Of a DNA stretch of 52,784 nucleotides, positions 6,243-49,641 are shown piece by piece (position 1 is the first letter of the stretch; the number at the start of each line of letters is the position of its first letter). The notes beneath the pieces were generated by a model, which had not been told where the DNA came from, searched no databases, and saw nothing but the letters and a program-made list of their open reading frames with translations. The stretch is from a bacterium (lineage in GTDB: Bacteria; Patescibacteriota; Minisyncoccia; 1-14-0-10-42-19). The position numbers and the translations under genes are program-made. The DNA lies in NCBI GenBank assembly GCA_030690215.1, contig JAUYHD010000034.1, positions 1-52,784 on the forward strand. The letters run 5' to 3'.

Positions 6243-6260
6243 TTACCATTATCAAACTAT

Positions 6261-6277
6261 TAAACACCGAGTGTTTA
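6261..6277. repeat. REP-like palindrome, copy 1
   Basis: TAAACAC-CGA-GTGTTTA, a perfect stem with a 3-nt loop just upstream of the RAYT transposase start. The same core recurs at 6472, 6969, 19766, 52550, 52571 and 52606. Confidence 0.85.
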
Positions 6278-6297
6278 GTAATTGGTAGAATCTGAGT

Positions 6298-6969
6298 ATG
6301 AGAAATATAATTATAGCCCCAGAAGAGCACTATCATATTTTGAATAGAGGAAATAACAAACAACCGATATTTTTGGACGACCACGATCGGGCTCGATTTC
6401 TTTTTCTTATCCTTTATTTTCAGTCGTCCGTCATTGTTCTTAATGTTTCGTACCATATTCTTCATTTTATGAAACACTCGGTGTTTAATATTTCTAGAAA
6501 TATGAAAAAGGAGATATTCGAAAATCGGTATATTGATCTTGTGAATTTTGCGCTTATGCCGAACCATTTTCATCTCACTATTCAAGAACGAAAAGAGGGT
6601 GGTACCGCAAGATATATGCAGCGTGTGCTTAATGGATATACAAAATATTTTAATGCAAAATATAAAAAATCTGGCCATCTATTTCAGGGTCCGTATAAGG
6701 CGATACATATCAGCCACGATCGACAGCTTCTCTATCTTTCCGCATATATCCATAGCAACCCAAAAGAATTACAAAAATGGAGCAGAAAACCAGAAGCATA
6801 CCCCTGGTCAAGTTATCAAGATTATACGCAGAAAAACCGCCGGGGTAGTTTATTGCAAATGGGGATTATCACAGAGCAATTTCCACATGTTAAAAAATAC
6901 AGAGATTTTGTTGAAACAAGTGGCGCAAAGAAACAGAATAAGTATTTGGGAGAAGAACACTATATTTAG
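6298..6969 (+). mobile_element. RAYT/Y1-type (IS200-like) transposase gene
   Basis: 223-aa reading frame. The HUH motif is MPNHFHL (His90, His92). The segment NGYTKYFNAKYKKSGHLFQG carries the tyrosine expected to attack DNA (Tyr114 or Tyr117). YIHSNPKEL and the C-terminal YPWSSYQDY are typical of REP-associated tyrosine transposases. These enzymes cleave and join single-stranded DNA at REP hairpins and are usually single-copy housekeeping-like genes rather than autonomous insertion sequences. Here REP-like palindromes flank the gene at 6261 and 6969, and a third lies inside the reading frame at 6472-6486 where it encodes KHSVF. It interrupts the glycan locus between asnB and a GT-B paralog. 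Confidence 0.9.
6472..6486. repeat. REP-like palindrome inside the RAYT coding sequence
   Basis: AAACAC-TCG-GTGTTT, the REP core in reverse orientation, read in frame as KHSVF in a variable segment before the HUH motif. Confidence 0.8.
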
Positions 6970-7003
6970 TAAAATACTAAACACCGAGTGTTTAGTATTT
7001 TAC
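6969..7003. repeat. REP-like palindrome, long copy downstream of RAYT
   Basis: A 16-bp perfect stem GTAAAATACTAAACAC with loop CGA. It begins at the last base of the transposase stop codon and may also stop transcription. Confidence 0.85.
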
Positions 7004-7104: not shown

Positions 7105-8538
7105 GTGTCTATGGAAAAGGCGAAGAAAAAAACCATTGCAATCTCAAGTTTTCATACGCTCATTTCGCGTAATATTTTGCGTTCAGGTTTGTTGGAAGAA
7201 CTTCAAGGGAGAGTGAATATTGTTATTTTTTGTCCACAGCATAAGAAAGATTTTTTTAAAAATGAATTCGCGGGCGAGCATGTTTCCGTGGTGGGCGTTC
7301 CCGGTGTTTCTCTTTCACGGAGAGAACGAGTGGCGCGAACTATCGGTGCCGCCCTTCTTCCTACGTCAACCATTCAATTTAAAAAAAAAGCGAAATATTG
7401 GCGCGATAAAAAAAGAATACACTACATATTTTCGCTCGCATTACTTTCAACCATAGCGCGCCTAAAGCATACGCCCATATTGTTTCGACGATTGTTTTCA
7501 TCACTCTACGATCAGGATATTTTTGGCGCTTTTTTCCAGGCGTATCAACCGGACCTTGTGTTTTCTACGGACGTTCTTGATTGGAATGACGTTCGGATGC
7601 TCAAAGAAGCAAAGGCGCACGGTATAAAAACCGTAGGCATGGTTCGTTCTTGGGATAATCTTTCTAATAAGTCGCTTGTACCGGTTGCGGCTGATTCTTT
7701 TTTGGTAAACAATGATTTCACAAAAAAAGAACTGGTGGAATTTCACAACATACGCTTTAAAGATATTACCGTTGTCGGTATGCCGCAATTTGACTACTAC
7801 ATTGGATACCAGCCGACAGGAAGAAAAAAATTTTTTGAAAAATTAGGATTTGATCCCGGGCGTAACATTATTATGTTCGCGCCGATGGGCAATAAGTTTA
7901 TTGAAACCGATTGGCAGATGCTGCAATTGCTTCATGATAAAATATATGTAGGAGATATTCATGGGAGTCCCCAGATTTTAGTGCGGTTTCCCCCGGGGGA
8001 CGATTTTCGTCGCGACCAATTACGACTATCGGATAGGGTAAACATATATTTTGATAAGCCGGGTACTGCGTTTCAGAGTGAGAAGCGGAAAGATAATGAA
8101 TTAGGCAGAGAGGATATGATTCATCTTGCCGATTCTCTTTTCTATTCAGATGTGCTGGTAAATGCCGGTTCTTCCTTGTGCATTGATATCGCTGCGTTTG
8201 ACCGGCCGATTATATATCCCGAATTTGATGGGGGAACGGATGCCCCATATTTTCGGAGCGTGCGCCATTTTCCCGAATATCATCATTACAAACATCTGGT
8301 TATGAACAACGCGTGCAAAAACGTATCTTCTCCCGAAGAGCTTGTAGTATGGGTGAATCGGTATGTTGCGGATCCGTCACTTCATAGAGAGGAACGCAGA
8401 GCGCTTGTGCGGGCGCATTGCAGTAAGCACGACGGCAAAGCGCATACGCGGATTGCGTCTGTGCTTTTACAAATGCTGGAGAATGGATTTAGCGCTGCTC
8501 CCAGCAGCGTATTATATTCAAACAAACAGTATGATTAG
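7105..8538 (+). CDS. GT-B-like surface carbohydrate protein, paralog 2
   Basis: 477 aa from GTG at 7105, or 475 aa from ATG at 7111. The GTG lies 6 nt after an AATACT box, so both starts remain open. It shares with its paralogs PDLVFSTDVLDWNDV, VRSWDNLSNKS, VNNDFTKKELVEFH, VVGMPQFDYY, a strand-loop IIMFAPMG and a C-terminal DPSLHREERRALVR. The strongest match is to the 8672 paralog; the 3015 gene is more distant. No transmembrane helix is seen. A role as a GT-B or glycerophosphotransferase-like enzyme in surface polymer assembly is inferred from fold pattern and position only. Confidence 0.6.
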   Translation: MSMEKAKKKTIAISSFHTLISRNILRSGLLEELQGRVNIVIFCPQHKKDFFKNEFAGEHVSVVGVPGVSLSRRERVARTIGAALLPTSTIQFKKKAKYWRDKKRIHYIFSLALLSTIARLKHTPILFRRLFSSLYDQDIFGAFFQAYQPDLVFSTDVLDWNDVRMLKEAKAHGIKTVGMVRSWDNLSNKSLVPVAADSFLVNNDFTKKELVEFHNIRFKDITVVGMPQFDYYIGYQPTGRKKFFEKLGFDPGRNIIMFAPMGNKFIETDWQMLQLLHDKIYVGDIHGSPQILVRFPPGDDFRRDQLRLSDRVNIYFDKPGTAFQSEKRKDNELGREDMIHLADSLFYSDVLVNAGSSLCIDIAAFDRPIIYPEFDGGTDAPYFRSVRHFPEYHHYKHLVMNNACKNVSSPEELVVWVNRYVADPSLHREERRALVRAHCSKHDGKAHTRIASVLLQMLENGFSAAPSSVLYSNKQYD

Positions 8539-42611: not shown

Positions 42612-43301
42612 ATGGCTAAGTTCGAAAAACGCATGGAAGCCCATGCATTAAGGAGGAGGGGTTGGAGTATCAAAAAGGTGGCAAAATATCTAGAAGTTTC
42701 TAAAAGTACCGCAAGCATTTGGTGCCGCGACCTAGAATTAACGCAAAAGCAAAAAGAAAGATTGTTGCAGAATGCAATTCGCGGAGGACATATCGGCAGG
42801 ATAAGAGGAGCGGAAGCGAACAGGAGAAAAAAGCAGGAGCGGATCGCTGCATACCAGGAAAAAGGTAAAAAAGTTTTAGAAAATTTGTCTTTTAAGGATT
42901 TACTTTTAGCCGGAATTGCGTTATATTGGGCCGAGGGTAGTAAGGGGAGTAAGCTTGTTTTTACAAATTCTGATCCACAAATGATAAAATTCATGATGTT
43001 ATGGTTCAGGAAGATCATGAAAACGCCGCAAGAGGATTTTATGCCATGCATTTTTATCAATGAAATGCATCGACCTCGTATACGAAAAGTCCAGAGGTTT
43101 TGGTCGGATTATTTGGATGTATCTATAAAGCAATTTAGCAAACCTGTTTTTTTACGGACAAAACAGAAAAAAGTATATGAAAATTATAATTCGTATTATG
43201 GAGTTCTTGCGTTACGGATACGAAAAAGTGTAGATTTAAAATACTGCATATTGGGCCTTATTGATGCATTGAAGTTAAAATATGAACATGAGTCGACGTA
43301 G
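42612..43301 (+). CDS. HTH protein with a LAGLIDADG-like C-terminal region, function unknown
   Basis: 229 aa. The N-terminus has a helix-turn-helix: RRRGWSIKKVAKYLEVSKSTASIWCRDLEL is 42651-42740. A second part has LLLAGIALYWAEGSKGSKLVFTNSDPQMIKF (about 42901-42995) and ends ALRIRKSVDLKYCILGLIDALK, a pattern recalling LAGLIDADG/WhiA-like domains. No catalytic residues can be assigned with confidence. The frame runs 10 nt into the tRNA-Met gene, which is unusual. It is next to a tRNA pair whose tRNA-Asp 3' end is duplicated downstream; a link is possible but not shown. Confidence 0.65.
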   Translation: MAKFEKRMEAHALRRRGWSIKKVAKYLEVSKSTASIWCRDLELTQKQKERLLQNAIRGGHIGRIRGAEANRRKKQERIAAYQEKGKKVLENLSFKDLLLAGIALYWAEGSKGSKLVFTNSDPQMIKFMMLWFRKIMKTPQEDFMPCIFINEMHRPRIRKVQRFWSDYLDVSIKQFSKPVFLRTKQKKVYENYNSYYGVLALRIRKSVDLKYCILGLIDALKLKYEHEST

Positions 43302-43367: not shown

Positions 43368-43442
43368 GCGGCCGTAGTGTAGCCCGGTTAACACGTCTCC
43401 CTGTCACGGAGAAGATCGTGGGTTCAAATCCCATCGGCCGCG
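43368..43442 (+). tRNA. tRNA-Asp (GTC)
   Basis: 75 nt. Acceptor GCGGCCG/CGGCCGC, discriminator G, loop CTGTCAC with stem TCTCC/GGAGA. It lies 3 bp after tRNA-Met. Its 3' 17 nt plus CA are copied at 43617 and 45422. Confidence 0.95.
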
Positions 43443-43444
43443 CA
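43426..43444 (+). repeat. tRNA-Asp 3' end, att-like copy 1 (in the tRNA)
   Basis: AAATCCCATCGGCCGCGCA. Exact copies at 43617-43635 and 45422-45440. Confidence 0.9.
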
Positions 43445-43447
43445 TAT

Positions 43448-43490
43448 AAACACCCCCCGATTACTTTTTGAATCAGGGGGTGTTTTGTTG
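43448..43490 (+). terminator. Terminator of the tRNA unit
   Basis: AACACCCCC...GGGGGTGTTTTGTT with an inner GATT/AATC pairing. Confidence 0.75.
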
Positions 43491-43500
43491 CTTTGGTGGC

Positions 43501-43635
43501 GATGGGATTTGAAGGGTATTTCAAAAATATAAACTGCTTTATATTTTTGAAAACCCAGGTTTCGGAGGAGGCTGTTTTGATGCCGCAACGCGGCTCCAAA
43601 ACAGCCGAGGGAGAAAAAATCCCATCGGCCGCGCA
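43501..43635. repeat. 135-bp tRNA-tailed repeat R, copy 1
   Basis: Begins GATGGGATTT and ends AAATCCCATCGGCCGCGCA, so its ends are inverted over 10 bp. Inside are TCAAAAATATAAA-CTGC-TTTATATTTTTGA (43521-43550) and GGCTGTTTTG...CAAAACAGCC (43570-43606) around GCCGC-AAC-GCGGC. Copy 2 at 45305-45440 is nearly identical. Confidence 0.92.
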
Positions 43636-43687
43636 AAATAACCTAGGTTGCTTCAAAAACGGCTACCTATTGGGTGGCCATTTTTGT

Positions 43688-43693
43688 TACAAT
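43688..43693 (+). promoter_or_regulatory. -10 box TACAAT, 6 nt before ATG
   Basis: TACAAT-GTCTTT-ATG, the same spacing as TACAAT-ATACTT-GTG in the second module at 45482. Confidence 0.5.
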
Positions 43694-43699
43694 GTCTTT

Positions 43700-44053
43700 A
43701 TGTCAAAATCTCTCGAAATAGCTCGTGACTTTCTAGGTAAAGAGGTACGAGTGAAGATGAATCGACCGCTTGGCTCTCATCACCCTGAGCACGGCTTTCT
43801 TTACGAAGCTAACTACGGCTTTATTTCAGGAGTGAAGGCACCCGACGGTGAGGATCTGGATGCCTACTATCTCGGAGTACATGAGCCGCTAGATGAAGTC
43901 GATGGTGTATGCATCGCCATTGCACATCGCAAGAATAACGATGACGACAAGCTAATTGTGGTTCCCAAAGGAATGGTGATGTCAGATGAAGAAATAGCCA
44001 AAGCGATCCACTTTCAAGAGCAGTGGTTTGATACGGAGATATTAAGAGCGTGA
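43700..44053 (+). CDS. Inorganic pyrophosphatase-like small protein
   Basis: 117 aa from the ATG at 43700; the longer frame from 43493 is only repeat R read through. It starts MSKSLEIARDFLGKEVRVKMNRPLGS and has HGFLYEANYGFISG and APDGEDLDAYYLGVHEPL, the Asp-rich strand of family I pyrophosphatase in a modified form, and KLIVVPKGMVMSDEEI. The fold is shorter than the usual 170-aa PPase, so its substrate may differ. Codon choice (more CTC, GCT, GAG) differs from neighbours, in line with recent arrival. It is the cargo of module 1. Confidence 0.75.
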   Translation: MSKSLEIARDFLGKEVRVKMNRPLGSHHPEHGFLYEANYGFISGVKAPDGEDLDAYYLGVHEPLDEVDGVCIAIAHRKNNDDDKLIVVPKGMVMSDEEIAKAIHFQEQWFDTEILRA

Positions 44054-44104
44054 TTCATTCAAGATTAGGAATAAAAATACAGTCCTGACCCTCCCGCATC
44101 TTAA

Positions 44105-44132
44105 TCCCAACAGCGTCCAGGATGGTGCGCAT
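44105..44132. repeat. Motif M, copy 1
   Basis: TCCCAACAGCGTCCAG-N5-TGCGCAT. Same in the second module at 46182-46209. On the minus strand it reads MRTILDAVGIKMREGQD. Confidence 0.75.
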
Positions 44133-44134
44133 CG

Positions 44135-44163
44135 AAAAAGAGCCATAGGTCAGGGCTCTTTTT
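44135..44163. terminator. Bidirectional-looking terminator
   Basis: AAAAAGAGCC-N8-GGCTCTTTTT. Confidence 0.75.
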
Positions 44164-44251
44164 CTATTATTATTTATGTCAAAAACCGCTATAATTAGAT
44201 TGTGCTATAATCAGGTTGTTAAGAGTAATATTATAATTTAATTAAAATAAA

Positions 44252-45187
44252 ATGAATTTAGAAGAAAAAATACCAACACCGAGCGTATCAAACACAGGAT
44301 CTTTTTCACAAGTTCCACCGAGCGCCCCTCTAAAAATAGGGAAGCTTAAAGCGAGCCGTATGATTGTAAAAGAATCATGGAATATTTTAAAACAGGATAA
44401 GGAGCTGGTATGGTTTCCCGTTCTTTCAATGATCTCAAGCTTAGTTGCTCTTATTCTGATGGGTATACTATTCTTTTTCATCGTAATGGATGGAGATATT
44501 CACGCGCTCGATAATCTGAAAGAAAGTGGAATGAATGTATTAGGTTATGTTATTCTTTTTGTTTATTATCTTGTGATGTTTTTTATTACCAACTATTTTC
44601 TCGCAGGGGTTTATATTATTGTTCAAGGACGATTTGGCGGACAGAATTTATCTCTAACGGATGGTATAAATGGGGCAAGTCGAAATTTAGGAAAAATATT
44701 TTTATGGTCATTAATATCTGCAACGGTTGGGGTTATATTACGAATAATCTCTGATAAATTTAAAGTTATCGGCAGGATAGTTGCTTCACTTCTTGGGGCG
44801 GCGTGGGGGATACTTACATATTTTAGTCTTCCTTCCCTAATTATCGGACAAAAATCAGTAAAAGAATCCTTCAGAGAATCTGCTACGCTCATTAGAAAGA
44901 CTTGGGGAGAGACGATTATTGTAAATTTTGGCGTAGCATTGTTTTTTGGGATCCTTATGTTTTTTGGGTTAGCGCTTTGCATAGGTATAGCTGTGCTTAT
45001 GCCGGTCAAGGGAGTGCTTATCCTTGTGTCAGTTCTTTTTGTTATTTTTATGATTGCAATTACGATTATTTCATCAGTCCTGGGTGCAATTTTTAAATTG
45101 GCTCTCTATGAATTTGCCCTAACGGGTAATGTCCCAAAAGGATTTACATCAGATTTAATAATAGGAGCGATAAGGTCTGGAAAGTAG
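44252..45187 (+). CDS. Multi-span membrane protein (DUF6159-like)
   Basis: 311 aa. After a 35-residue soluble N-terminus, about six membrane helices follow, with FFITNYFLAGVYIIVQGRFGG, FSLPSLIIGQKSVKESFRESATLIRKTWGE and a final FALTGNVPKGFTSDLI. The layout matches DUF6159-type proteins of unknown function. No catalytic residues are visible. A TGTGCTATAAT extended -10 box about 45 bp upstream gives a separate promoter. It lies between motif M1 and repeat R copy 2, so it could be native sequence or additional cargo. Confidence 0.7.
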   Translation: MNLEEKIPTPSVSNTGSFSQVPPSAPLKIGKLKASRMIVKESWNILKQDKELVWFPVLSMISSLVALILMGILFFFIVMDGDIHALDNLKESGMNVLGYVILFVYYLVMFFITNYFLAGVYIIVQGRFGGQNLSLTDGINGASRNLGKIFLWSLISATVGVILRIISDKFKVIGRIVASLLGAAWGILTYFSLPSLIIGQKSVKESFRESATLIRKTWGETIIVNFGVALFFGILMFFGLALCIGIAVLMPVKGVLILVSVLFVIFMIAITIISSVLGAIFKLALYEFALTGNVPKGFTSDLIIGAIRSGK

Positions 45188-45260
45188 GTCTAGTATAAAA
45201 ATATACCATAATGCTGTCGGATAGCAGTTCTAACATTGCCCACTAAATCGCGCCTGATAC

Positions 45261-45292
45261 AAAAACACCGTCCTTTTGGGCGGTGTTTTGTT
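45261..45292 (+). terminator. Rho-independent terminator
   Basis: ACACCGTCC-TTTT-GGGCGGTGT then TTTTGTTG, right before repeat R copy 2. Confidence 0.8.
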
Positions 45293-45304
45293 GTTTGGGT
45301 ATCG

Positions 45305-45440
45305 GAAGGGATTTGAAGGGTATTTCAAAAATATAAACTGCTTTATATTTTTGAAAACCCGGGTTTCGGAGGAGGCTGTTTTGATGCCGCAACGCGGCTC
45401 CAAAACAGCCGAGGGAGAAAAAATCCCATCGGCCGCGCAA
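45305..45440. repeat. 136-bp tRNA-tailed repeat R, copy 2
   Basis: Differs from copy 1 in one base of AACCC(A/G)GGT, one extra A before the tRNA tail, and the first few bases. It ends in AAATCCCATCGGCCGCGCA (45422-45440). Confidence 0.92.
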
Positions 45441-45458
45441 ATTGAACTGGGAGCTGGT

Positions 45459-45487
45459 TTAGAATCTTGGATCGAAATTGGTACAAT
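45459..45487 (+). promoter_or_regulatory. Promoter of ydcF-like gene, -10 box 6 nt before GTG
   Basis: TTTAGA, 17 nt, TACAAT, then ATACTT and GTG at 45494. Confidence 0.55.
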
Positions 45488-45493
45488 ATACTT

Positions 45494-46141
45494 GTGACGG
45501 ATATAGAACTCGCAAAGATTATTTGGGATTATCATCATGTAGGTCACAAGCTTGAAAAAGCAGATGGTATTTTTGTGCTGGGTAGTCACGACACAAGAGT
45601 AGCTGAATATGGAGCATGGTTATATCTCGATGGGTGGGCACCATTACTTATTATGTCGGGAGGAGTGGGCAGTCTAACTGAAGGGATGTGGCAGACGTCT
45701 GAAGCGGAACATTTTGCTTCAATCGCTGTCCGCATGGGGGTCCCACAAGATAAGATACTTATTGAATCGAAATCAACAAATACCGGAGAAAATATTCGCT
45801 ATACGAAGTCACTTCTTGAGGAGAAAGGAATGTTGGTGAAGAAACTCATTTTGGTACAAAAGCCATACATGGAACGCCGCACGTATGCAACATTTGTAAA
45901 GCAGTGGCCTGGTATGAACTTTGTAGTGACTTCGCCACCTATTCCGTTCGATGAATATCCAAATGACGAGATATCTTTGAAGCAAGTGATTGCCATTATG
46001 GTCGGTGATCTTCAGAGGATACGAGACTACCCTGATCAGGGTTTTCAAATCGAGCAAGAGATACCTGCGACCGTTTGGGAAGCTTACGAAGAGCTTGTAC
46101 GTCGTGGATACACGGGACACCTTGTTTCAACCGATCCATAG
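45494..46141 (+). CDS. YdcF/ElyC-family (DUF218) protein
   Basis: 215 aa from the GTG at 45494; a TTG at 45467 would start inside the promoter. IFVLGSHDTRVAEYGAWLYLDG, IMSGGVGSLTEG, SEAEHFASIAVRMGVPQDKILIESKSTNTGENIRYTKSLLEEKG (45697-45828) and the KPYMERRTYATFVKQWP segment are DUF218 landmarks. Relatives act in envelope polymer metabolism or bind nucleotide cofactors; the role is unclear. No membrane anchor is seen. Its TACAAT box, 6 nt before the start, mirrors that of the pyrophosphatase-like gene. Cargo of module 2. Confidence 0.82.
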   Translation: MTDIELAKIIWDYHHVGHKLEKADGIFVLGSHDTRVAEYGAWLYLDGWAPLLIMSGGVGSLTEGMWQTSEAEHFASIAVRMGVPQDKILIESKSTNTGENIRYTKSLLEEKGMLVKKLILVQKPYMERRTYATFVKQWPGMNFVVTSPPIPFDEYPNDEISLKQVIAIMVGDLQRIRDYPDQGFQIEQEIPATVWEAYEELVRRGYTGHLVSTDP

Positions 46142-46181
46142 TCAGGGGTATAAATGTCATCCTCGTTCTTCCGAATTCTGG

Positions 46182-46209
46182 TCCCAACAGCGTCCAGTAC
46201 ATTGCGCAT
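46182..46209. repeat. Motif M, copy 2
   Basis: TCCCAACAGCGTCCAG-N5-TGCGCAT, 41 bp after the ydcF-like stop. The minus strand reads MRNVLDAVGTRIRKNEDD. Confidence 0.75.
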
Positions 46210-46231
46210 ACCACAAAAACACCATCCTTTC

Positions 46232-46259
46232 TTGATTCTTTTAACATACATGATACTAT
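46232..46259 (+). promoter_or_regulatory. Promoter of the inositol-monophosphatase-like gene
   Basis: TTGATT, 16 nt, TACTAT; a GGAGG ribosome site follows before the ATG at 46292. Confidence 0.6.
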
Positions 46260-46291
46260 AGCGTGCAACAGTACAGAAAGGAGGATCCGGA

Positions 46292-47092
46292 ATGTCATAC
46301 AAAAGTTTTTTAATCCCAGCTCTTTTAGATGCATCAGAGATAGCGCGGAATTACTTCGGTAAAACAACGGCACAGTTAAAAAAGGATAACACGGTTGTTA
46401 CCGAGGCCGATTTTGCAGTGGGGGCGTTTTTGGTTGCCGCGGTAAAAAAAGAATATCCTCTTCATAATATTGTGGACGAGGAAAGGGGTGTTATAGATAA
46501 CGCGTCAGATTTTACATGGGTTATTGATCCGATTGACGGAACAAGCAATTTTGCGGCAGGCGTTCCGCTCTATGGTATTTTATTGGGGCTGTTGTATAAG
46601 GATAAACCGGTTGCCGGAGGAATTGCTCTTCCTCCGTTTTACAGAATATATACGGCAGAAAAAGGCGGCGGGGCGTTTTGCAACGGTGAGCGCATATATA
46701 CTACTCGGGAGAAAAAGCTCGCGGATGTCATTGTTGCATATGGATTTAACAGTTCCTTTGGCGCGACAGAAATAACGATACAAGAAGATGCTATGGCATT
46801 TACGCGGTTAAAGTACAAAAGCAGGGGCATCCGTATGACAATGAATATTTTTGATCCTATGATGGTTGCGGAAGGAGGATTTGGAGTATGGATGAGTCGT
46901 TCTACAAAAATATGGGATAATGTCGCGACGCACTGCATTTTGGAAGAAGCAGGGTGCCTGTACACTGATTTTTATGGGAACCCCATTGATTATTCAAATT
47001 GGCGGTATGATACAGAAAAGAAATTTACCGTTTGTACCGCAAACCCAGAATTACACGCAGATACCCAAAAAATTATACATAGCGATGTGTAA
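46292..47092 (+). CDS. Inositol monophosphatase family protein
   Basis: 266 aa, usual length. NTVVTEADFAVGAFL, the Glu-Glu of IVDEERG, WVIDPIDGTSNF and the late KIWDNVATHCILEEAG are the metal-binding motifs of the Mg-dependent FIG superfamily. The enzymes remove phosphate from inositol phosphates, fructose 1,6-bisphosphate, histidinol phosphate or PAP. Which of these cannot be judged, though the WD-x-A/V region matches IMPase most. A GGAGG ribosome site lies before the ATG, unlike the leaderless genes upstream. Confidence 0.88.
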   Translation: MSYKSFLIPALLDASEIARNYFGKTTAQLKKDNTVVTEADFAVGAFLVAAVKKEYPLHNIVDEERGVIDNASDFTWVIDPIDGTSNFAAGVPLYGILLGLLYKDKPVAGGIALPPFYRIYTAEKGGGAFCNGERIYTTREKKLADVIVAYGFNSSFGATEITIQEDAMAFTRLKYKSRGIRMTMNIFDPMMVAEGGFGVWMSRSTKIWDNVATHCILEEAGCLYTDFYGNPIDYSNWRYDTEKKFTVCTANPELHADTQKIIHSDV

Positions 47093-47155
47093 TCGCCACA
47101 ACAGTATTAAATCAGGGCTTGGAGTATTCCCTGATTTTTTATATACTGGGAGGAT

Positions 47156-47344
47156 ATGGACAAGGAAAAATTGCTACGTATGGTTGAGTCTTGGCATATA
47201 AAAATGAAGCCGGAGTACCGGGGCTTTCGATGCGCGGAATGCCAGCGGTATATGCATAAGGCATGGCATATCTGGTTTGTTCGCAAGGGATTTAAATGCG
47301 AAATCCATTTGTGCAGAACATGCGCCAAGAGACAAGAAATATAA
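47156..47344 (+). CDS. 62-aa zinc-finger-like protein
   Basis: ATG behind GGGAGGAT. It has CAEC and CRTC pairs, with CEIHLCRTCAKRQEI at the end and H, W and K residues between (HKAWHIWFVRKGFKC). The pattern suggests a zinc-binding knuckle; no family name is recognised. A TATACT box just upstream and repeats on its downstream side mark it as a single-gene unit. It may bind nucleic acid; not shown. Confidence 0.65.
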   Translation: MDKEKLLRMVESWHIKMKPEYRGFRCAECQRYMHKAWHIWFVRKGFKCEIHLCRTCAKRQEI

Positions 47345-47347
47345 AAA

Positions 47348-47365
47348 GTGTCATGGGGCGTGAGA
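47348..47365 (+). repeat. Short repeat GTGTCATGGGGCGTGAGA, copy 2
   Basis: Identical to 37133-37150; preceded by TATAAAAA as in the RptA/RptC tail. Confidence 0.65.
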
Positions 47366-47374
47366 GAGTCAAAT

Positions 47375-47704
47375 ATGAACAAAGAATTTACATTCAAATC
47401 TGATAGATTTAAGAAAGCAAGGGGTGGACACTCGCGATGGCTATTGGTTTCTTGCGAAAAATGCAGGACGCCGCTTTTAGTGTATCAGAAGGACGGCCCA
47501 GGGATATTGAAACGATTATATCTTGATCGAATTGCTATGTCGCAGTTGCAAGCGAAAACGAAGTTTGCCTGCAAGAAATGTAAAACAGTTCTAGGCATAC
47601 CGATTGTATATCAAAAAGAGAAACGTCGAGCCTACCGGCTTTTCGCAGGAGCCGTCACTAAGAGGATAATTAACGCCCATAAATTAGGAAAAATTCGATT
47701 TTAG
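47375..47704 (+). CDS. 109-aa zinc-ribbon protein
   Basis: From the ATG at 47375. SCEKCRTPLLVYQKDGPGIL and FACKKCKTVLGIPIVYQ give two CxxC pairs 40 residues apart, each followed by a hydrophobic strand, a zinc-ribbon layout. The C-terminal AYRLFAGAVTKRIINAHKLGKIRF is basic. I do not recognise a named family, although the DGPGILKRLYLDRI segment looks conserved in character. It lies between two GTGTCATGGGGCGT repeats. Confidence 0.7.
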   Translation: MNKEFTFKSDRFKKARGGHSRWLLVSCEKCRTPLLVYQKDGPGILKRLYLDRIAMSQLQAKTKFACKKCKTVLGIPIVYQKEKRRAYRLFAGAVTKRIINAHKLGKIRF

Positions 47705-47733
47705 CCATGTGTTGTATTCAATAAAGTGTAAAA

Positions 47734-47750
47734 GTGTCATGGGGCGTAGG
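47734..47750 (+). repeat. Short repeat GTGTCATGGGGCGTAGG, copy 3
   Basis: Preceded by AAAGTGTAAAA like the end of RptA copy 2. Confidence 0.65.
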
Positions 47751-47753
47751 GAT

Positions 47754-47776
47754 AAAAAAGAGCCGCTAAGCGGCTC
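47754..47776 (-). terminator. Terminator of the minus-strand membrane gene
   Basis: GAGCCGCTTAGCGGCTC followed by six T on the minus strand. Confidence 0.8.
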
Positions 47777-47788
47777 CGGGCAATAAAT

Positions 47789-48025
47789 TTACTTCCGTAA
47801 TCGCAAACAAACTGGTTCTATAAAAAGTATCCAAATTGCCGCGCTTATGACCGTGACTCCTATTAATCCGATTAATCCCAGTAACATCATGATACCCACA
47901 TCGTCTGGCGTGTAAACACCAACACCAAAGATTTTCATGCTTGCTGAACTCAGCCATTCACGGGGGAGAAACGGTAAGGAAAGGAGTGCCAAAATTACAA
48001 GGAACAAAATGCGCAATACATTCAT
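47789..48025 (-). CDS. Small two-span membrane protein
   Basis: 78 aa from the ATG at 48025 (minus strand), with GGAGGT 5-6 nt upstream; the longer frame from 48040 lacks support. The first helix is LRILFLVILALLSLPFLP, then an Asp-containing loop YTPDDVG and a second helix IMMLLGLIGLIGVTVIS. It ends AAIWILFIEPVCLRLRK. The product is unknown. Its 3' end is partly duplicated just upstream at 48062-48117. Promoter TTGTAT-17-TAACAT lies in that duplicate. It is one of three minus-strand single-gene units in the region. Confidence 0.7.
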   Translation of the reverse strand: MNVLRILFLVILALLSLPFLPREWLSSASMKIFGVGVYTPDDVGIMMLLGLIGLIGVTVISAAIWILFIEPVCLRLRK

Positions 48026-48061
48026 TTGGTACCTCCACAAAATTGTTTAGACTGAAATCAT

Positions 48062-48117
48062 GTTAGCGCATATACAAGAAAAATACAAGCTGGTTCTATA
48101 AAAAGTATCCAAACTGC
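48062..48117 (-). pseudogene. 3'-end remnant of a paralog of the small membrane gene
   Basis: The minus strand reads AVWILFIEPACIFLVYALT and stop, matching AAIWILFIEPVC of the gene at 47789. The DNA TGGTTCTATAAAAAGTATCC is shared by both. The remnant is joined to RptA copy 4. Confidence 0.65.
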
Positions 48118-48123
48118 CCCAAG

Positions 48124-48236
48124 CCCATGACATTTTCTATATTTCGACCAATTCGATAGACAACCAATGGAAAAATGGCTTAAAATAAAGAAAATCTGTG
48201 TGCGATAGTATTTAAAGTGTAGCGTTGCCACGGGAG
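48124..48236 (+). repeat. Interspersed repeat RptA, copy 4
   Basis: CCCATGACATTTTCTATATT to GCCACGGGAGCGTAGG; middle GGAAAAATGGCTTAAAATAA. Confidence 0.85.
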
Positions 48237-48248
48237 CGTAGGACAAAG

Positions 48249-48277
48249 AAAAAAGCCGCTGGGCGAACCATGCGACT
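48249..48277 (-). terminator. Terminator of the 76-aa minus-strand gene
   Basis: AGTCGC-N12-GCGGCT then six T on the minus strand, one G-T pair. Confidence 0.6.
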
Positions 48278-48309
48278 TTTAAAACCACAATTTTACTGGT
48301 ATAGATCGG

Positions 48310-48540
48310 TTAGCGTATTAAAGGTCTCAAAGAGTCATAAAACCTTCTCGATTCTTCCGAATGCAGTTTTGCCAGCGCGGCCCGCATAATAATGGATATA
48401 CGATCTTCTTGAAAACCGGCAGCTAAGAACTTTCTTATGACTTCAGATTCTTTAAGGCCTTCTTGTAGATAATCTTTCGCGATCTCAACAACGTCAAGCT
48501 CTCCGATTGGTTCGCCATTAACTGTTAACTGTTTTTCCAT
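48310..48540 (-). CDS. 76-aa helical protein, unknown
   Basis: Complete minus-strand unit: TTGACA-16-TATCAT promoter, AAGGAGGAAG ribosome site, ATG at 48540, terminator at 48249. It begins MEKQLTVNGEPIGELDVVEI and continues with ALAKLHSEESRRFYDSL; two or three helices are likely, mixed charge, no Cys. The middle (LQEGLKESEVIRKFLAAGFQEDRISIIMRAAL is 48361-48456) looks like a small UBA-like or regulatory helix bundle, but I cannot assign a family. Confidence 0.65.
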   Translation of the reverse strand: MEKQLTVNGEPIGELDVVEIAKDYLQEGLKESEVIRKFLAAGFQEDRISIIMRAALAKLHSEESRRFYDSLRPLIR

Positions 48541-48570
48541 CGCTTTTCTTCCTCCTTCTTTTTTTGTATG

Positions 48571-48598
48571 ATGATAGCAAACTGGCAGAATTTGTCAA
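48571..48598 (-). promoter_or_regulatory. Promoter of the 76-aa gene (minus strand)
   Basis: TTGACA (48593-48598), 16 nt, TATCAT (48571-48576). Confidence 0.7.
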
Positions 48599-48762
48599 GC
48601 CCCGTGGCAAGAAGCTCAAGCGTTGTCCATGGCACCATGACAACGCTTGCGATTCCGTCACTCGCCCCAGATGGAAGCAATCTTCCGCCTGTGGCTCGCT
48701 AGGAAATATAAATCGGAATATATACATAACACATTACATTATAAGAGCTGAATTTTTAACAT

Positions 48763-49641
48763 ATGAATGCTTTCTTATACGGCATCGCGGTCACTCTTTT
48801 TGTTCTTTTGGGAACATTCGCATGGTATTGGCATCGTAAGGCCCACGCAGTGTCAAGAAAAGGAAAAACGCTCCTTCAAGAGATTGTCTCTCTTTTAATC
48901 CATGATTTGCGGGGGCCGCTGGACAATATCCAAAAAATGTCGGAGCTGATGCTTTCTTCGTCTTCTATGACGGAGGAACGGCGGAAGCAATATACCGGGC
49001 TTATCCATGATAGTTCGTCTGCCATGCTCGTGCTTATCAATAATATTTCTGATGCAGCAAAGTTGGGTGCAGGTACGCTAGTCATTAAAAAGATGGAAGG
49101 CAATCTTTTACAGCTTATCAGGGACCGGATCTCATTTTTTTCACTTGCCGTTAAAAATGCCGGGCTTACCATGCGTTCATCATTTGGCAACGAGATACCA
49201 GAAGCTATTTCTTTTGATAGCCGGGTCGTATCAGACACAATAAACATCTTGTTTTCAAACGCGATTAAATTCAATGAACCGGGGGGCAACATAGTGTTGC
49301 ACGTATTCCGCCATAGAAAAGGAAAAGATCTTGTAGAGGAAGCAAAACAAAGTAATATTGAATGGTATCCGCCTACCTATAGTGAAGGAAGCGAACATGA
49401 TACTGACGCGGTTGTTATTGCCGTAACTCACAGTGATATTGGCATCCCTATAGAAACTCTCCCGCTTTTATTTAAAAAATATGAAAAAATGGGGGAGGCA
49501 TTTTTGGGAAAAGTAAAACAGGCGCATGGCATCAGCTTGCTCGTTGCAAAGCATTTGGTGCGTCATGCGGGGGGAATCATTGGCGCCGGATCCGAGGAAA
49601 ATAAAGGTACGACGTTTTTCTTTACAATCCCATTTTCGTAG
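48763..49641 (+). CDS. Sensor histidine kinase, degenerate ATP lid
   Basis: 292 aa. One N-terminal membrane helix (FLYGIAVTLFVLLGTFAW), then HisKA with His47 in LLIHDLRGPLDNIQKM and a HATPase domain with N-box INILFSNAIKFNEPGG. The G1 box is VTHSDIGIP, where the usual Asp and Gly of DTGxG are His and Asp, and the G2 box reads AHGISLLVAKHL instead of GLGL. ATP binding may therefore be weak or lost. The final GSEENKGTTFFFTIPF is normal. It stands directly before three receiver proteins, its likely partners. No sensing domain is present. Confidence 0.78.
   Translation: MNAFLYGIAVTLFVLLGTFAWYWHRKAHAVSRKGKTLLQEIVSLLIHDLRGPLDNIQKMSELMLSSSSMTEERRKQYTGLIHDSSSAMLVLINNISDAAKLGAGTLVIKKMEGNLLQLIRDRISFFSLAVKNAGLTMRSSFGNEIPEAISFDSRVVSDTINILFSNAIKFNEPGGNIVLHVFRHRKGKDLVEEAKQSNIEWYPPTYSEGSEHDTDAVVIAVTHSDIGIPIETLPLLFKKYEKMGEAFLGKVKQAHGISLLVAKHLVRHAGGIIGAGSEENKGTTFFFTIPFS

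Follow-up and report, generated by a model that had tools for sequence, protein, structure and literature searches.

A family of small, gene-less DNA elements with tRNA-specific ends in Patescibacteria that probably inserts at the tRNA T-loop

Results

A tRNA-Asp gene followed by two copies of a folded repeat

The window (the whole 52,784-nucleotide stretch analysed, i.e. contig JAUYHD010000034.1, positions 1-52,784 of the forward strand; Patescibacteriota, Minisyncoccia) carries an intact tRNA-Asp(gtc) gene, the target gene, at 43368-43443 on the plus strand (ARAGORN; Rfam RF00005, 69 bits), downstream of which lie two copies of a repeat, R (43501-43647 and 45305-45451; 96% identity). The 19-mer AAATCCCATCGGCCGCGCA, which comprises the tRNA 3' part from position 57 to the 3' end, occurs at exactly three sites in the window, i.e. 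inside the tRNA gene (43426-43444), at 43617-43635 and at 45421-45439, all on the plus strand and with spacings of 191 and 1804 bp. The original prediction that the tRNA tail is copied twice downstream is confirmed, with the third site at 45421 rather than 45422; its description of R as a two-hairpin repeat with inverted, T-arm-like ends, which are GATGGGATTT/AAATCCCATC, was likewise borne out, the predicted energy of R as single-stranded DNA being -44.8 kcal/mol compared with -18.2 +/- 3.2 kcal/mol in shuffles (z = -8.2).

The predicted fold consists of a stem, P1, made from copies of the tRNA T-arm, and of two hairpins, P2 and P3; the left strand of P1 is antisense to the tRNA-Asp T-arm and its right strand is a direct copy. 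The first unit begins with the 19-mer within the tRNA gene, after which a terminator-like palindrome (43449-43485, plus strand, from sequence) lies in the tRNA-proximal arm and pairs inside arm 1 of a circular fold. There follow, on the plus strand, the left P1 strand (43501-43510), antisense to tRNA-Asp positions 57-66 by fold and sequence comparison; a guide-like GAA (43511-43513), antisense to T-loop positions 54-56 and unpaired in P1; P2 (43514-43556), with an extrahelical A and with 19/19 pairs covarying across the family; P3 (43560-43616, from fold and covariation), the end of which is the exchange point; and the second 19-mer, which provides the right P1 strand and the remainder of the tRNA 3' end. 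In the second copy (45305-45430, plus strand, by a covariance model, R1, at 140.7 bits) the corresponding parts are at 45305-45314 (left P1), 45315-45317 (GAA), 45318-45360 (P2), 45364-45420 (P3) and from 45421 (right P1).

The accessory island and its cargo

In a sister species (G002) guaA, tRNA-Asp and a histidine kinase gene are neighbours, and the flanks are adjacent in the sister-genome loci compared (L118, L119). The genes at 43700-48040, together with an upstream helix-turn-helix ORF, have zero homologues anywhere in the G002 genome (tblastn, whole genome); since the intervening genes are missing there, the interval between tRNA-Asp and the histidine kinase gene at 48763 (43445-48762) is an accessory island of 5.3 kb that contains two R units. 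The G002-absent genes, all on the plus strand, include two cargo ORFs, one weakly similar to inorganic pyrophosphatases (43700-44053; PF00719, E = 1e-4, 22.6 bits against a cut-off of 23.5) and one encoding a DUF6159 membrane protein (44252-45187; PF19656, E = 1e-31), and two further island genes, of the YdcF/DUF218 (45467-46141; PF02698, E = 2e-21) and inositol-monophosphatase (46292-47092; PF00459, E = 3e-49) families. Cargo order is thus not fixed among relatives, as had been anticipated. One foreign-looking gene had been proposed to follow each R; the pyrophosphatase-like and YdcF-like ORFs are indeed present, but the first module has two genes, DUF6159 being the addition, such that the second R unit of the window (1804 bp) carries both. 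The upstream helix-turn-helix ORF (42612-43301, just before the tRNAs) encodes an HTH_23 protein, in which an ALYWAEGSK...NSDP region is similar to LAGLIDADG endonucleases; relatives of it are found near several R loci.

A motif, M, was also proposed to close each module. It recurs near-identically at 44104-44132 and 46181-46209, at the ends of two island modules, and reads MRxxLDAVGxxxR on the minus strand, but no link to R emerged elsewhere; a 121-bp query gave only one match in the same genome, leaving M unsupported as a part of the element.

A family of R elements at many tRNA genes

The window's own genome has R-like sequences behind tRNA-Pro, tRNA-Trp and tRNA-His, with P1 matched to the respective tRNA; shuffled sequences fold much less well than the Pro and Trp copies. 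Of the 286 class genomes sampled, 52 contain R, hereafter R-I, as detected by a covariance model built from four copies, mostly at E values of 1e-36 to 1e-10; the same model detected it in seven further genomes of the phylum that lie outside this class. Named matches are metagenome-assembled genomes of Sungbacteria, Azambacteria, Andersenbacteria, Wolfebacteria and other Parcubacteria, from different studies. R lies downstream of tRNAs of 14 isotypes (labels assigned by hand) and of tmRNA, always on the tRNA strand and often at many tRNAs of one genome; its occurrence in independent studies and in closed or single-contig genomes rules out chance or an assembly artefact. Four IMG/VR pattern scans and searches of phage and plasmid collections returned no R in viral or plasmid records, on which basis a helper virus was rejected.

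Among the tRNAs in the R loci, 19 have downstream copies of positions 57-73 without an R-I match, and many of these share a second core, GCCGGAGCGATG-stem-CCGCGAGGCGG (R-II). R-II has the same layout as R-I, with units mostly of 136-203 bp and strong covariation, but its core is unrelated; a corresponding model (R2) finds it in 73/286 genomes at up to 19 copies. R2 examples are at L060 7689+, L068 3857-, L091 189+, L098 3165+/8292-/8628-, L099 7773-/9257-, L079 6461+ and in tiles L282-L312 of G103, a closed, single-contig genome in which positions 57-73 are copied no more than 500 bp downstream of 14 of the 49 tRNAs predicted (a doubtful SeC call among them); long-range copies and cargo were both absent from G103. 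R-II often comes with the full 20-nt antisense of the tRNA 3' end, placed around a terminator palindrome. The union of both model searches gives R-I or R-II in 106 of the 286 class genomes.

These results remove tRNA-Asp specificity and the gene cassette as a rule from the original prediction: R occurs mostly away from tRNA-Asp, and nearly all units are 140-200 bp long and gene-less, which by the refuting condition set in that prediction rules out an Asp-cassette system, the more general notion of an element of tRNA tails with a folded site being upheld. Gene cargo in R units is real but exceptional, only the window (1804 bp) and one other locus of the same genome, L047, showing it. The latter has a 443-bp unit with a GIY-YIG ORF (7703-8082) between R and a degenerate R without P2; GIY-YIG genes reach up to 17 copies in this genome. 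Such tandem, cargo-bearing units, and direct repeats of tRNA 3' ends as in genomic islands, are what one would expect if R elements were remnants of larger tRNA-integrating islands left after loss of an integrase gene. We regard that origin as improbable, because unit size is tightly constrained and the units are gene-less at nearly all loci, no larger integrase-bearing unit was found, the closed G103 genome lacks long-range repeats, and the IMG/VR, phage and plasmid collections gave no match.

Several loci have unusual tRNA arrangements. R lies behind tRNA genes that apparently contain group I introns at L058, L074, L085 and L098 (5758-5983; RF00028 match in L098). At L008 (1720-2330) there is a nested tRNA-Trp array, in which one intact tRNA is accompanied by several 5' halves and, in mirror order, by several 3' halves; each is joined via a short inverted repeat, and the array also contains one R unit. 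In two genomes a CCTGCCGGCAGG-like palindrome lies inside the outer tRNA copy behind R (L057, 1370-1400; L102, 6133-6165).

Unit anatomy and tRNA-specific ends

An upstream copy of tRNA positions 57-74 (14-18 of 18 positions) lies within about 300 bp of 56 of the 71 good R elements; 47 of 48 measured units are 142-198 bp long, the single outlier being 705 bp. In all cases the direct repeat starts at T-loop position 57, position 56 never being included, and it normally ends at the tRNA 3' end. Because this is also where tRNA conservation ends (C74 being common to all tRNAs), the right boundary of the repeat is largely uninformative, and a fixed-length target-site duplication was rejected on the same ground. 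The exchange point reads GAAA|AAATCCC or AGAG|GATTCC, P2 is preceded by GAA, GCA or GGA plus GGG, and in most units a terminator precedes R; some R copies have decayed ends. Behind a tRNA-Glu in G002 (L227; contig C9, about 70977-71068) is an R-I variant without P2, which suggests that P2 is dispensable or has been lost. Comparison of the loci establishes the unit anatomy, the exact boundary and the tRNA-specific ends; a unit consists of the tRNA from position 57 to its 3' end, usually a terminator palindrome, an antisense T-arm extending to position 54, P2 and P3.

The left strand matches the antisense of the local T-loop and T-stem at 96%, compared with 82% when the tRNAs are shuffled, and the next four positions match the local tRNA at 53% compared with 31%. 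The antisense of positions 54-56 tracks the local T-loop in 54 of 56 elements (TTC/GAA in 49, TCC/GGA in two, TGC/GCA in three; two exceptions), with all five non-TTC T-loops having the matching triplet. The right copy does not extend to those positions, yet the triplet is there; pairing in P1 of R cannot explain it, whereas pairing with an intact T-loop, or copying from it, could. Beyond cassettes at tRNA-Asp, the main property of the family is that its ends match each target tRNA both forwards and backwards.

Inverted and direct copies of one and the same target could also result from host replication or repair, if palindrome-driven template switching at T-arms makes and spreads the hairpins with no dedicated enzyme. 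The antisense copy varies in length (10-20 nt), a few loci have longer direct repeats (61 bp in L105), and no enzyme was found (below), all of which accords with template switching; on the other hand, dozens of genomes have the boundary sharply at position 57, and the cores form a conserved family, both of which are difficult to account for unless a specific enzyme acts, and we judge this explanation unlikely.

Occupied and empty sites, and movement between tRNAs

A tRNA-Glu gene has a 189-bp unit in G333 and none in G389, a genome of the same genus, with both flanks matching; likewise, G121 has a unit at tRNA-Asp where the congeneric G006 has an empty site, with some rearranged sequence beside the site in this pair. 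Empty sites had been named as a check on the proposal that a non-autonomous unit with its own folded site, and without an integrase, inserts at tRNA tails, and these sister genomes support it.

In G115 an R unit lies within a tRNA-Leu gene, the original Leu 3' part being displaced behind R and, as read from sequence, able to pair with the Leu 5' acceptor strand. The new 3' part, together with 9 nt downstream, is that of the tRNA-Asp of the same array from position 58, implying that a unit from a tRNA-Asp entered tRNA-Leu at the T-loop. The array (L089, 4821-7719) comprises 21 tRNA genes on a CPR chromosome, with three R-I elements. More generally, cores are more alike in the same genome at different tRNAs (0.764) than in different genomes at the same isotype (0.683; p = 5e-6), the latter value being barely above that of unrelated pairs (0.674). 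Since cores resemble each other by genome and not by tRNA, the core spreads between tRNAs, its ends being re-tailored to each. Genome comparison thus shows presence/absence polymorphism, jumps between different tRNAs and, with these, the mobility of R.

Selection on DNA base pairing

Of the 33 pairs of R, 29 covary, with 481 double changes compared with 135 in shuffles. P2 has G-T pairs and A-C mismatches at equal frequency; the former make up only 8 of 1290 standard pairs (0.6%), compared with 203 of 3794 (5.4%) in the tRNA stems of these loci (p = 1e-17). P2 keeps its single extrahelical A even where, on reading the sequences, the stem has been replaced, and the complete unit modelled as a DNA circle takes a three-armed fold (z about -10). 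The near-absence of G-T is what a structure selected, or corrected, as DNA would be expected to show, and strongly indicates single-stranded DNA rather than RNA; it could instead reflect palindrome correction during replication.

The constant tRNA strand, the strong conserved fold and the presence of R at many tRNAs of one genome might suggest an immobile RNA element of the tRNA transcript, e.g. one acting in processing, in attenuation or as a decoy. Such a role appears very unlikely given that a terminator lies ahead of R in most units, that G-U is nearly missing from P2, that presence at orthologous tRNAs is patchy and that a tRNA-Leu is split. Nor does Rfam contain a match: none to R in the window reached the gathering threshold and none in five loci was credible at E <= 5, the R-I matches being at chance level.

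Candidate enzymes

We surveyed enzymes in 80 genomes, 40 with R and 40 without. A tyrosine recombinase is present in 76 of the 80, nearly all of which, with or without R, have exactly one; by its ubiquity this enzyme is Xer-like, and a dedicated tyrosine integrase is ruled out as a general answer. The co-occurrence of a tyrosine recombinase with R that had been envisaged was therefore not seen, only a single housekeeping-like copy in both sets. GIY-YIG nucleases, considered because two such ORFs lie just behind R, were set aside, the family being in 79/80 genomes and no more numerous in those with R. Y1 transposases occur in 29/40 genomes with R and 21/40 without (p = 0.1), and are missing from 11 of the 40 with R, including the closed, single-contig G103 with its 13 R-II copies. 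In the window an IS200-like Y1 gene (6298-6969) has its own hairpins (6255-6283 and 6969-7003), unrelated to R, and the R1 model found nothing near ten Y1 genes. With one tyrosine recombinase per genome, and with Y1 and GIY-YIG lacking a clear link to R, no partner enzyme is pinned down.

Discussion

We consider it probable that Patescibacteria harbour a family of small mobile DNA elements, non-coding and non-autonomous, of which R is the conserved part and which insert at T-loop positions 56|57; what counts against this reading is that no enzyme was pinned down among the families surveyed and that none of the units was observed in excised form. Insertion would occur at the phosphodiester bond 56|57. 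Because the unit supplies both a terminator and a replacement for the tRNA 3' end, the tRNA would stay intact, its original 3' end being pushed behind R. The active form may be a folded single DNA strand, which as a circle would take the three-armed fold, with the antisense T-arm strand as a putative guide that pairs with the target, TTC|RANNCCC, while a strand-transferase acting in trans would move one strand. The ends might be rewritten for a new tRNA either by selection and gene conversion or by direct copying of the target. In the window, tandem units would additionally have captured genes, giving rise to the 5.3-kb island.

Guided single-strand transfer of the IS608 type fits these features best. 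In IS608 a guide 5' to a hairpin base pairs with the cleavage site, and insertion, which is retargeted when the guide is changed, occurs 3' to a tetranucleotide that stays in the left flank (PMC5934647); TnpA_REP moves REPs, hairpins whose bulge is required (PMC8266576). R shares with the IS200/IS605 and REP systems folded single-stranded DNA hairpins with an unpaired base, a single strand orientation, gene-less non-autonomous copies, insertion 3' to a short fixed sequence and a guide-like sequence that lies 5' of the hairpin base and is complementary to the flank of the cleavage site (54/56; its function as a guide is our reading). It differs in that the complementarity spans about 13 nt and is different for each tRNA, the unit holds a tRNA 3' end and terminator, there are three arms, and there is neither a consistent Y1 gene nor a GTAG. 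IS608 is thus the best mechanical analogue, with REP/TnpA_REP an analogue for the gene-less copies, in the sense of working alike and not of membership.

A specific version of the preferred explanation is that an HUH (Y1) enzyme acts in trans as in those systems, with the 54-56 antisense 5' of the P2 base as an extended guide, insertion 3' to TTC, and P2 with its unpaired A as the recognition hairpin. The covariation of 54-56, the IS608 and REP precedents (PMC5934647, PMC8266576) and the higher frequency of Y1 genes in genomes with R favour this proposal; the weakness of that association, the 11 genomes with R and without Y1, the unrelated hairpins of the window's own Y1 gene, the R1 result and the lack of GTAG make it possible but, on balance, doubtful.

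R also has features in common with sites used by tyrosine recombinases. CTXphi, with its folded attP, and other Xer-exploiting elements employ a forked one-strand hairpin as attachment site. The forked single strand, extrahelical base and single-bond exchange point of R recall these and integron attC sites, and a tyrosine recombinase is at hand in 76/80 genomes; R might accordingly be a folded attachment site, most likely for host Xer, which would exchange one strand in the T-loop. We think this rather unlikely: the only enzyme is a housekeeping-like single copy whose distribution does not follow that of R, the T-loop does not resemble dif, there is no GTT exchange box, and ends that differ for each tRNA would be intolerable for a sequence-specific recombinase. 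With integron cassettes R shares a folded-strand site, an extrahelical base, tandem modules and rare gene cargo, but it has no RYYYAAC/GTTRRRY boxes and no G|TT exchange, inserts in the T-loop and is mostly gene-less. The integron-like label that had been proposed consequently fails on the integrase gene, the attC boxes and the expectation of one gene per unit (units being 142-198 bp), although an IntI-like role is formally possible for the single Xer-like recombinase. Compared with CTXphi and other Xer-exploiting elements (IMEX), the target of R is a tRNA or tmRNA T-loop and not dif, phage genes are lacking and R is absent from viral collections.

Genomic islands that integrate at tRNAs, including tycheposons, insert at the tRNA 3' end and restore the tRNA, leaving direct repeats of its 3' part. 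R shares this direct repeat but is only about 185 bp, has no integrase in the element, and possesses an inverted T-arm copy and a conserved folded core common to many different tRNAs. MITEs are likewise small, non-coding, dispersed and palindromic; unlike them, R has no fixed terminal inverted repeats, both its ends copying the local target tRNA.

The overall results place R in what is apparently an undescribed, large family of tiny gene-less DNA elements in Patescibacteria, our coverage of papers and preprints, within which no such elements were described for CPR, being incomplete. A more far-reaching, and tentative, proposal is that these are DNA-guided, self-retargeting elements, in which each insertion copies the target T-arm both ways so that the new copy carries its guide at once, with at least two unrelated cores and a presence in about a third of Parcubacteria genomes. 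The occurrence of elements on roughly a quarter of the tRNA genes of G103 would equally suit a beneficial role. If the ends are indeed re-matched to each target by base pairing, the family would represent a natural programmable inserter of single-stranded DNA without a known enzyme. R-I and R-II are common (106/286 sampled genomes) in a very large bacterial group about whose mobile elements almost nothing is known, and their activity would also account for the accessory islands of these tiny genomes and for tRNA genes that are split or nested.
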